Shown: positions 15,371 through 23,312 of the stretch, one piece after another
Layout: each line of letters opens with the position of its first letter
How positions within the stretch are numbered: the first letter of the stretch is position 1
Source: a virus
Reading direction: 5' to 3' (one strand)
IMG/VR virus record: IMGVR_UViG_3300011445_000068
Coordinates: 1-23,312 of that record
DNA length: 23,312 nt
Position numbers and translations under genes: made by a program
Notes under the pieces: generated by a model
Database searches by the model: none
What the model saw: only the letters and a program-made list of their open reading frames with translations
Told to the model about the DNA's origin: nothing

Positions 15371-16648
15371 ATGAGCAAGCACACCAACCGGATCGGCACG
15401 GCATTGCTGGTCGCCATCATGAAGGGCCGGCACACCTGGTCGACCGCGCTGCCGCCGCTGATCGCCGACGGCGGCGGTCTCTACCTGCAGCCGCGTGAAG
15501 GCGGCGGCGGCACCTGGAAGTATCGCTACACCAAGGATGGTCGGGCAACCTTTGCCGGGCTCGGCCGGCTCGAGGACGTGTCGGCCAGCCAGGCGCGGCT
15601 CCAGCGCGACCTTCTCAAGACGAGCCTGCGCAAGGGCGGCGATCCCGTGCGCGATCGCCAACGCGCCGGCGCCATTGCCTGGGCCACGGGCACAGACCTG
15701 TCGACCTTCGCCGCCGCCTGCGAGAACTGGATGGCGGCGCGACTGAGCAAGACGGCGCCGGCCCATCGGCGCAACCTGACCAGCGTCGCCAGCAATCACG
15801 TCATGCCGACGCTGGGCAAGATGCGGGTCGATGACGTGAGCGGCGACCACGTCATCCGCCTGACCGGCCACCTCAAATCGACGACCATGGTGCGGCGCTC
15901 GTTGCAGGTGATCCGCGAGACCATCAACTTCGCCAATGCCGCCCGCGCGGTGCCTGACCGTTGCGCCAATCCGGCCGCTGATCCGCTGGTCATCCAGACG
16001 CTGGCTCTCAGCAAGCGGACGACCGGCAAGAGCAGGCCGCACCCCAAGCTGGCGGTCGCCGACGTGCCCGCGTTGATGGCGCGGCTGTGGGAGAACAAGA
16101 GCGTCACCGGCCTCGGCATGATGGCGATCGTGCTGACCGGCCTGCGCGCCAACGAGGCGCTGCATGGCCGGTGGTCCGAGATCAGTGGCACCGTCTGGAC
16201 GATCCCCGGCGACCACGATGGCGTCGAGGGGCGCATGAAGGCGCGCGAAGGGCAGGGCAGGCCGCAGCGCGTGCCGGTGACGCCGGGCCTCAAGATGGTC
16301 CTCGACACCCTGCGCGAGCTGCGCCGCTCGGCCGACGATTTCATCTTTCCCGGCAACGCGGGCAAGCCCATCGCCGTCGGCTCGATGTGGAAGGTGCTGC
16401 GCGACTACAAGGCCGCGGGCATCACCACGCACGGCTTCCGCTCGACGCTGATGGACTTCGCCAAGGCGCAAAAGGTGCCGTTCGATGTCCGCGAGGCCAT
16501 GCTGCATCACGTCATGGGCGGCGCCGCCGGTCACTACGACTACGACGACGACCGGCTGGCCGATCGCATCGCCTGCATGACCGCCTGGTCGGACCACTGC
16601 ATGAGCGCCATCCCCACCGGGCAGCGCCGCCTGCACGTCGTTGCTTAA
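15371..16648 (+). CDS. int: Tyrosine-type integrase (P4-like)
   Basis: This 425-residue site-specific recombinase inserts and, with an excisionase, excises the phage genome. The N-terminal part has the DGGGLYLQPREGG and WKYRYTKDGR motifs of P4-type integrases (about residues 35-70), followed by a core-binding domain (about 115-205). The catalytic domain shows Arg259 in LTGLRANEALHG, His354 and Arg357 in THGFRSTLMDFA, His380 in AMLHHVMGG and the nucleophile Tyr389 in GHYDYDDD; the terminal AWSDH matches the usual C-terminal helix. All catalytic residues are present, so it is probably active. The start is ATG 15371 behind tggggaac. It has its own leader carrying AACGTATAY repeats, so autoregulation by bound integrase is possible. 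It converges on the excisionase-like gene. Confidence 0.93.
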   Translation: MSKHTNRIGTALLVAIMKGRHTWSTALPPLIADGGGLYLQPREGGGGTWKYRYTKDGRATFAGLGRLEDVSASQARLQRDLLKTSLRKGGDPVRDRQRAGAIAWATGTDLSTFAAACENWMAARLSKTAPAHRRNLTSVASNHVMPTLGKMRVDDVSGDHVIRLTGHLKSTTMVRRSLQVIRETINFANAARAVPDRCANPAADPLVIQTLALSKRTTGKSRPHPKLAVADVPALMARLWENKSVTGLGMMAIVLTGLRANEALHGRWSEISGTVWTIPGDHDGVEGRMKAREGQGRPQRVPVTPGLKMVLDTLRELRRSADDFIFPGNAGKPIAVGSMWKVLRDYKAAGITTHGFRSTLMDFAKAQKVPFDVREAMLHHVMGGAAGHYDYDDDRLADRIACMTAWSDHCMSAIPTGQRRLHVVA

Positions 16649-21120: not shown

Positions 21121-22026
21121 CTAGTCATTGAGAGAATGACGGTCGGGACATTCGTCGGAGAGCAAATCGCTACTAGCGGCAATTTGCTCCTTGGGCTTCG
21201 GACAAACCGTTTGGAGAAGGTCTACCGCCTGTCGGAGTGCGGCCTGCAAATCGCTCACCCTGGCGGTCCTGCCCGGCTTGGCTGCCCATTCCGCCAGCGT
21301 TGCCTGATCGGGCGGTGTGGCGGCGCCAAAGGCCGTCCCGGTGCCTAGCCACTTCTGTAGAACGTCCTGCCGCTTGCTGCGCTCGATCTCGTCCTTGGTG
21401 TGGAGGTTGACGTGTTGGTACTTGGTCGCGAACTGGAGGTCCGTTCCCTTGAAGTCGGGGTCAACCTCCTCGCGGGTCTTGCCCTTGAGGACCACCGCCG
21501 CCGGTTGCGGGCGGGGCGGCTGGTCCTGCATCACGTCGGGGATGCGCTGGACGCGACGGCGCTGCCGCTGTGCATGGCCTGACAGATGAGAACCACGACG
21601 AACGGCGTTTTTGGTACCCTTACCGGTTTGGGTAAGGGTACCAATTCCGCGTTTCGGCACACTTTCCCAGATCGTGCGCACTTTATACGACGTGCTTGCC
21701 TGCAGCATCTTGCGTCCCGCCTCGGGGTCGCGGGCGAATCCGGCTGTGGCTTTGATCTCGTTGGCCGTCATGATCCGCAAGTCATTCCGCACCAGCCAGC
21801 GGCTGTATGCATTGGTGTCGGGATACTGCCTGCGGGCCTCCAGGATGACCTCGCCAAGCTCGATCGTCGCCTCGATCCATTCCGCTCGCGCAGTCTGGGA
21901 TAGCGTCCGCGCAGTCTGGGATAGCGTCTGAGCGCGGGTGATCTTGTCGAAGGCGGCGCGGTAGCGCTCGGCCAGCGGGTCGACCTGGTTGGTGCTCTGC
22001 GTCGGCACCGGCATTTCGTTCGTCAT
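21121..22026 (-). CDS. DUF3102-like helical protein
   Basis: A 301-residue protein. The N-terminal third (about residues 18-110) is helical, with AEWIEATIELGEVILEARRQ followed by YPDTNAYSRWLVRNDLRIMT. This recalls the DUF3102-type pattern 'GELLLEAK...P.G.F..WL......S..TA...M..A', but the match is by eye. A Q/P/R-rich linker follows, and the C-terminal half includes DEIERSKRQDVLQKWLGTG. The start ATG 22026 sits eight bases after ggagg; a GTG at 22032 is too close to it. The gene carries a perfect 21-bp tandem duplication (21887-21928), which gives LSQTAR twice, and a perfect 14-bp inverted repeat (21611-21644). An intrinsic terminator lies just upstream. Function unknown. Confidence 0.65.
   Translation of the reverse strand: MTNEMPVPTQSTNQVDPLAERYRAAFDKITRAQTLSQTARTLSQTARAEWIEATIELGEVILEARRQYPDTNAYSRWLVRNDLRIMTANEIKATAGFARDPEAGRKMLQASTSYKVRTIWESVPKRGIGTLTQTGKGTKNAVRRGSHLSGHAQRQRRRVQRIPDVMQDQPPRPQPAAVVLKGKTREEVDPDFKGTDLQFATKYQHVNLHTKDEIERSKRQDVLQKWLGTGTAFGAATPPDQATLAEWAAKPGRTARVSDLQAALRQAVDLLQTVCPKPKEQIAASSDLLSDECPDRHSLND
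21611..21644. repeat. Perfect 14-bp inverted repeat inside a coding region
   Basis: Arm 1 ttggtacccttacc (21611-21624), a 6-nt loop, and arm 2 ggtaagggtaccaa (21631-21644) match perfectly. On neither strand does a T-run follow the stem, so it is not an intrinsic terminator. It codes GTLTQTGKGT, apparently an unconstrained linker. Confidence 0.85.
21887..21928 (-). repeat. Perfect 21-bp tandem duplication in a CDS
   Basis: The 21-base unit cgcgcagtctgggatagcgt plus c occurs at 21887-21907 and 21908-21928 without a mismatch. It is in frame and inserts exactly one heptad (seven residues) into a helix of the DUF3102-like protein. Confidence 0.9.
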
Positions 22027-22095: not shown

Positions 22096-23067
22096 TTACT
22101 CCGCCGCCTGCTGCAGCGGCGCCGGCCGGACGAAGTGCGGGAAGACCTCGTTGACGCGCAGTTGGATGCGCTTGACCTGCTCGTGACGCAGCCAGGCGTT
22201 GAAGGCCTTGATGACGTGGCCCAGCACCTGGTGCTTCTTCATCGGCGTCATCGAGCGCTCGTCGTCCGCCATCACCTTGCGCAGCGCCTCGAGGGGATCG
22301 CCCTCGACCGGCTCGTCGACGATCGTGCCGAGTTCGTTGGCGAACGAGTCGAGGACATCCTCACCGTGCAGCTCGATGATCTGGTAGGCCGCGAAGCCCG
22401 CCACATCCTTGTGCCCGATGACCGTGGCTGCCGCCTGGTACTCGCCGTTCATCAGGCGGGTGCCGAGCTTCAGGTTGGGATGCGTCTGGACGTACTCCAC
22501 GAATTTGATGGGCGGGAGCTTGTCCATTGGCTTCTTGGTCGTCGCGGTGAAGCAGTTGTGCTCGTACTGCAGCGCCATCGAGACGACTGCCGACATCTGC
22601 TTGGCCACGCCGTTCAGACCGGCGGTTGACAGGGCATCCGCGGCCGACCGCGCCTTGCCGTTGTCGATGTAGGCGAACAACGTCGGATCGTTGGGTACAT
22701 CGGTGATGATGTACGTCGGAAACGACGCGCCCGAGAGGTAGGACGCCCACAGGCGATGGGCGGAGTCGAGCAGAACGCCCTTGTCGTTGACCAGGATCGC
22801 CTGCCCGGTCTTCTTCCACTCGCCAGCGGACATCTGACGGGCGTAGTACTTGATGGTCGGCAGGGCCGGCTTGCGGTTGGCGCCGATCGGGTTGCGCAGC
22901 AGCAGGCCTTCGGCGGCCTCCTGATCGATCGTCACCCAGCCGTTGGTGAGGTTGAGCGGACGCTCGGGCTGCTCGGCCCGCCAGGCCTCGAACTCCTCGA
23001 GGAGGTTGGTGAACGCCTGCGATGAGGCGGTCACGAGGTCGAGCTTGAAGTGCGGTGTAAAGGCCAT
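22096..23067 (-). CDS. ParB/DGQHR-like phage protein with altered DSAHR motif
   Basis: This 323-residue protein is the first gene behind the leftward promoter. Residues about 68-150 follow a phage ParB-like pattern: TIKYYARQMSAGEWKKTGQA, ILVNDKGVLLDSAHRLWAS and YIDNGKARSAADAL. The usual DGQHR is DSAHR here (residues 101-105), so Gly and Gln are missing while His and Arg remain. The C-terminal half is helical without known motif. Members of this group are common in phages and mostly of unknown function; ParB-like folds bind DNA or nucleotides. ATG 23067 has ggag seven bases upstream. Its position suggests a regulatory or immediate-early role. I am sure of the gene, less sure of the family. Confidence 0.7.
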   Translation of the reverse strand: MAFTPHFKLDLVTASSQAFTNLLEEFEAWRAEQPERPLNLTNGWVTIDQEAAEGLLLRNPIGANRKPALPTIKYYARQMSAGEWKKTGQAILVNDKGVLLDSAHRLWASYLSGASFPTYIITDVPNDPTLFAYIDNGKARSAADALSTAGLNGVAKQMSAVVSMALQYEHNCFTATTKKPMDKLPPIKFVEYVQTHPNLKLGTRLMNGEYQAAATVIGHKDVAGFAAYQIIELHGEDVLDSFANELGTIVDEPVEGDPLEALRKVMADDERSMTPMKKHQVLGHVIKAFNAWLRHEQVKRIQLRVNEVFPHFVRPAPLQQAAE

Positions 23068-23133
23068 GAGAGGTCTCCAGGGCTGCGCGATGCGTCGGGA
23101 CAATTCCTTCGGCAGCATGACCAGCCTGGAGCC

Positions 23134-23162
23134 ATCGTAGGGACATGCTGTCTCTATCGCAA
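23134..23162 (-). promoter_or_regulatory. Leftward sigma70-type promoter for the early operon
   Basis: Read on the minus strand: -35 TTGCGA (23162-23157), a 17-base spacer and -10 TACGAT (23139-23134), each matching the consensus at 4 of 6 positions. The expected transcript start is near 23127, about 60 bases before the ATG at 23067. The spacer includes a TAGAGAC operator half-site, so repressor binding would block it. Confidence 0.65.
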
Positions 23163-23186
23163 GCGCTTTTAGAGACCGTTTGTCCC
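23140..23186. promoter_or_regulatory. 47-bp symmetrical operator over the promoter
   Basis: gggaca (23140-23145), 4 bases, gtctcta (23150-23156), 13 bases, tagagac (23170-23176), 4 bases, tgtccc (23181-23186). All thirteen outer positions pair about one centre at 23163, with aagcgctt palindromic inside. It covers the promoter from the -35 side to the edge of the -10. A dimeric repressor or Cro-like protein is the expected binder. Confidence 0.65.
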
Positions 23187-23236
23187 CCGCAGGAACAATT
23201 ACAGAAAGTCTGCAATCCGGAATTGGTCCGGCCGTT

Positions 23237-23249
23237 GCTAGAGACTAGC
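23237..23249. promoter_or_regulatory. Third TAGAGAC operator-like palindrome
   Basis: gctag-aga-ctagc is a perfect 5-bp inverted repeat with a 3-base centre and contains TAGAGAC (23239-23245), the same half-site as in the dyad at 23140-23186, 69 bases away from its second half-site. It is a likely additional repressor site, perhaps for a divergent promoter. Confidence 0.5.
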
Positions 23250-23312
23250 CAACCAAGCGGCGCGGCACCGTTCGGACGTTACGCCCGGCAATCCAGAAAT
23301 CGAGGTTCCGGT

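Follow-up and report, generated by a model that had tools for sequence, protein, structure and literature searches.

The DNA analysed here (the window) is a viral contig of 23,312 bases, which we read as a fragment of a temperate phage. Its rightward genes are those of podovirus-like morphogenesis (major head protein, tail tubular proteins, internal virion proteins, tail fibre, endolysin), and the presence of a tyrosine integrase gene, likewise rightward, agrees with a temperate phage (Table 1). Besides an HTH/excisionase-like gene and two genes of unknown function, the leftward early operon contains those of RecT and a YqaJ/RecE-like exonuclease. From the start of the first early gene (phrog_5931), the contig extends a further 245 bp upstream, and the candidate switch lies in this stretch, next to the gene. 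The second early gene contains a near-perfect hairpin (GGTACCCTTACC-GGTTTG-GGTAAGGGTACC, 21605-21650) within its coding sequence, as well as an exact, in-frame 21-bp tandem duplication at 21887-21928 (CGCGCAGTCTGGGATAGCGTC twice, protein repeat TLSQTAR), which is missing in the homologue of the related contig L053.

Table 1. Positions of the features discussed, in the window unless L053 is named.
Feature	Position	Strand	Remarks
Tyrosine integrase gene	15371-16648
First early gene, phrog_5931, unknown function	22096..23067	minus	start ATG 23067
Predicted early-mRNA 5' leader	23068..23127	minus	predicted start ~23127
-10 hexamer TACGAT	23134..23139	minus	initial TA invariant in window, L053, L205, L206
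Putative operator O1, TAGGGACA-TGC-TGTCTCTA	23138..23156		19 bp; placed as the operators of L205 and L206
-35 hexamer TTGCGA, early leftward promoter	23157..23162	minus	from the sequence
Putative operator O2, TAGAGACC-GTT-TGTCCCCC	23170..23188		19 bp; weaker symmetry, just upstream of -35
Third half-site TAGAGAC, inside GCTAGAGACTAGC	23239..23245		no recognisable partner half
Possible repressor gene end, last 21 codons RNLDFWIAGRNVRTVPRRLVG	23245..23310	minus	stop TAG 23247-23245; from position and analogy with L053 and L206
L053 divergent YdaS/P22-Cro-type gene	1328-1092
L053 palindromes, far side of repressor gene	1337, 1362		facing the divergent YdaS/P22-Cro-type gene
L053 CI-like HTH_3 repressor gene	1401-1796
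L053 palindromes at promoter	1807, 1839, 1863		first two 32 bp apart

The dyads at the early promoter

Upstream of the first early gene, we found an inverted repeat (23140-23186) whose arms, GGGACATGCTGTCTCTA at 23140-23156 and TAGAGACCGTTTGTCCC at 23170-23186, are 82% complementary and separated by a 13-nt spacer. A previous reading, made from the sequence only, had described it as a 47-bp symmetrical operator with thirteen of thirteen outer bases paired. The symmetry is present at that place, but the count is 14/17 pairs, and the mismatches form one 3-4-base block, located where two smaller dyads have their spacers. Two adjacent putative operators of 19 bp, O1 and O2, describe the 47-bp dyad better; their centres are 32 bp apart, which is also the spacing of two operators in L053. 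O1 and O2 each consist of one G-type and one A-type half-site, in mirror order between the operators, and it is this mirror order that results in the 47-bp symmetry. Their consensus is TAGRGACA-N3-TGTCYCTA, and no further site with up to two mismatches was found elsewhere in the 23-kb window.

O1 forms the spacer between the -35 and -10 hexamers of the minus-strand promoter of the early operon and overlaps the first two bases of the -10, so that operator and leftward early promoter overlap. The promoter with its 17-base spacer, as proposed previously, is real, but it is weak (TTGCGA-17-TACGAT matches at 4+4 of 12 positions, below the 9-of-12 cut-off of the tool used). These elements and their position relative to the operon were observed directly. 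The 7-mer TAGAGAC occurs at 23150 (as GTCTCTA), 23170 and 23239, with one further copy only in the 23 kb. The copy at 23239 had been assigned to another palindrome; it is present, but no partner half can be recognised. The region thus holds at least two related operator copies, O1 and the weak O2, together with one half-site. A second, loose motif resembling GGRMCAATTMC is seen at 23097-23108, 23191-23202 and 23217-23227 (GGGACAATTCC, GGAACAATTAC and GGACCAATTCC); its first copy is kept in the L053 leader, and the motif may be due to chance.

The same letters were sought elsewhere. The exact inner pair TGTCTCTA-N13-TAGAGAC occurs at 51 loci in IMG/VR, the flanks of none of which resemble the region, and the single operator TAGRGACANNNTGTCYCTA at 78 loci, with an immunity-like context in none of the 11 whose surroundings were read. 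Several other TAGRGACANNNTGTCYCTA loci in IMG/VR are arrays of 23-bp repeats. As a separate observation, TAGGGACAATTTGTCCCTA is repeated in L064, L072, L088, L112, L127 and similar loci, where four or five dyads spaced at 23 bp form an array; at the two loci read (L064 and L127), the array lies inside a phage gene that is possibly replication-related. No nucleotide match of the region was found in phages and plasmids, no prophage was confirmed in GTDB genomes searched via the adjacent gene, and a literature search on the half-site letters yielded nothing informative.

The corresponding region in relatives

Relatives were collected by scans with the protein of the adjacent first early gene and with an alignment. 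One of them, the sister contig L053, shares 93% protein identity. At the DNA level, its alignment to the window begins at 23130 and runs leftward over 2 kb with 84.6% identity, taking in the transcription start and the first two genes; no alignment was seen upstream of this point. This breakpoint, a direct observation, falls between the -10 hexamer and the leader. Upstream of its -10, L053 carries unrelated palindromes, AATACC-N4-GGTATT, and the whole 26-kb contig contains five AATACCNNNNGGTATT sites (up to two mismatches), all in two clusters that flank the gene of a CI-like HTH_3 repressor.

The plan is the same in L206 (63%), with its own motif CWACCAG-N4-CTGGTWG, which represents a third specificity: two sites lie at the promoter, two beyond the HTH_3 repressor gene, and 0 elsewhere in 34 kb. 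The operator clusters around the repressor genes of these two relatives were likewise seen directly. In L205 (68%), a perfect 19-bp dyad, GTCCTACAAAGTGTAGGAC, occupies the position between the -35 and -10, and strong dyads are present upstream of the first early gene also in the more distant L208, L211 and L214. The proposal that the early promoter is controlled by a lysogeny repressor is strongly supported by the repressor genes and flanking palindromes of L053 and L206 and by the promoter palindrome of L205, all at the same position upstream of the same gene. Previously, the half-site had not been recognised as that of a known phage repressor. The window motif was found in 0/15 relatives searched, which fits the prediction of a distinct specificity. 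GC-rich units of five bases (GGCNN) also form several arrays among the early genes of L206 (14540-16630), and a GGCAGGGATACTTTGTGAATT-like tail recurs in these arrays.

Instead of the divergent repressor gene that had been expected for the window, L053 and L206 have theirs upstream of the early promoter, on the same strand and reading toward it; the divergent gene, at the far end of the repressor gene, is of the YdaS/Cro type. By analogy, the window's own repressor gene is expected past the end of the contig, reading in the direction of the promoter. This gene is absent from the window, no contig extending the window was found, and the repressor was not found elsewhere. A reading frame with high GC at third positions that ends at 23245 may be its 3' end; searches with this possible C-terminus by tblastn and back-translation gave no database match other than one chance hit. 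As L053 and L206 have their right operator on the other side of the repressor gene, at a distance of about 350-500 bp, the half-site at 23239, which had been taken as a possible right-hand operator, is by the same analogy not one and would belong to the left cluster or to the 3' end of the repressor gene.

Interpretation and alternatives

We consider it very probable (about 0.85) that the region represents the OL/PL part of a lambda-type immunity cassette of a temperate podovirus-like phage, and that this cassette is exchanged as a module, because homology to L053 breaks off at the promoter and L053 and L206 share the plan but differ in their operators. We infer that a repressor of the window exists, that it binds O1 and O2, cooperatively, and that it functions in lysogeny. 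In the proposed mechanism, O1 in the promoter spacer would be bound by a CI-like repressor of the helix-turn-helix type, whose gene would lie directly to the right of the window. As a dimer on O1, this repressor would occupy the stretch between the -35 and -10, so that RNA polymerase could not reach the promoter. O2, located three helical turns further upstream, would probably be bound together with O1, and its position would support cooperative binding. The leftward early operon, with the phrog_5931 gene and the genes of the RecE-like exonuclease and RecT, would be blocked in this way during lysogeny. What passes between phages as a unit would be the repressor, its operators and the upstream promoter half, joined to the rest at the start of transcription.

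A further layer of control might be provided by the early mRNA leader. In the window, it can be folded as an outer stem around an inner hairpin, a fold that is weak here. The plan recurs, with different sequence, in L208, L211, L212, L214, L217, L220 and L206, and the fold is strong in L208, L211, L214, L217 and L220 (z about -3 to -4); in several relatives, the transcript 5' end (CUCC-like) pairs with the Shine-Dalgarno sequence. Over 16 relatives, the leader structure gives a suggestive signal, yet it does not reach significance when other genes from these contigs serve as the comparison (p 0.08). An Rfam search of the region gave no match above threshold, and a search with the leader sequence pattern matched L053 as the only one besides the window. 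A double control of the early operon, in which the exchangeable mirror double operator (O1/O2 three turns apart) is combined with a 5' leader RNA that is left in place at the junction, pairs its 5' end with the Shine-Dalgarno and is kept in several distant relatives, is for us a tentative idea and, taken as a whole, an unlikely one.

The dyad could instead act as an RNA hairpin in which a leftward transcript from upstream ends, as a terminator or 3' stabiliser, and not as a protein site. Its arms do form a stem (-25.9 kcal/mol, z -1.87), and 23245, just upstream, may be the end of a reading frame; however, there is no U-tract, no terminator was found, and a hairpin would not explain why relatives keep short promoter palindromes of unrelated sequence with copies beyond the repressor gene, which makes such a role improbable. 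We hold it to be just as improbable that the sites serve another regulator (Cro/YdaS-type, CII-type or a host factor) and not the lysogeny repressor. In lambdoid phages, the same operators serve both Cro and CI, and YdaS-type genes are present in the relatives, but the sites of the relatives are found on either side of the repressor gene, and a use shared with Cro would still make the site OL.

Judged without its surroundings, the sequence is only moderately convincing, and the case rests on position and relatives. In dinucleotide shuffling of the 245-bp intergenic region, 14 of 2000 shuffled sequences (~0.7%) contained an inverted repeat with 14/17 pairs and a spacer of up to 30. The triple half-site alone is weak evidence, because some 7-mer occurred three times in 157/2000 shuffles (8%), and comparable inverted repeats are common across the 23-kb window (20 overlapping matches vs. 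3.85 expected). Chance symmetry in a GC-rich intergenic region is nevertheless highly improbable, even though the dyad of O1 by itself lacks significance (38/60 shuffles were equally good) and triple 7-mers are not rare, since the whole dyad is matched so seldom and lies exactly where the relatives have their operators.

Relation to known immunity systems

In phages of the lambda/434/P22 type, tandem repressor operators of 14-19 bp lie over the leftward early promoter, and heteroimmune variants differ in operator sequence. The phage described here resembles these systems (CI, Cro, OL, OR) in the operators on its putative early left promoter and, in its relatives, in the second cluster beyond the repressor gene. 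In contrast to them, the repressors of the relatives are short HTH_3 proteins in which no peptidase S24 domain was detected, the early genes of this podovirus-like phage include those of RecE/RecT, and the window operator differs from the operators of its relatives.

In the PaaR2/YdaS region of CP-933P of E. coli O157:H7, 18-bp palindromes are located at the promoters of a CI-like/YdaS pair (PMC8630535). L053 and L206 are similar to it in having a CI-like HTH repressor gene divergent from that of a YdaS-type Cro, with palindromic operators, whereas the operator half-site consensus GTTTAGTAA and the toxin-antitoxin operon found there (PMC8630535) were not seen here. The mycobacteriophages L5 and Bxb1 of cluster A also have an operator within the early left promoter, and related phages of different specificity are heteroimmune; however, they carry 20-30 repressor sites genome-wide (PMC6550527), as compared to 0 other sites in the window at the same two-mismatch limit, which does not fit the stoperator type.

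Taken together, the same operon at the same position with a different repressor and operator is, as far as sequence tells, the pattern of heteroimmune phages. By the same measure, the operator specificity is new, and the type of switch is well known. The principle that immunity is exchanged as a unit has long been familiar from lambdoid phages. The finding brings one more operator specificity to the known phage immunity systems. The window and L053 also form a clean natural case of a lysogeny switch that is swapped as a whole, its breakpoint lying at the start of transcription, between stretches that are otherwise 84.6% identical. Such phage pairs make heteroimmunity and the co-evolution of repressor and operator directly testable.
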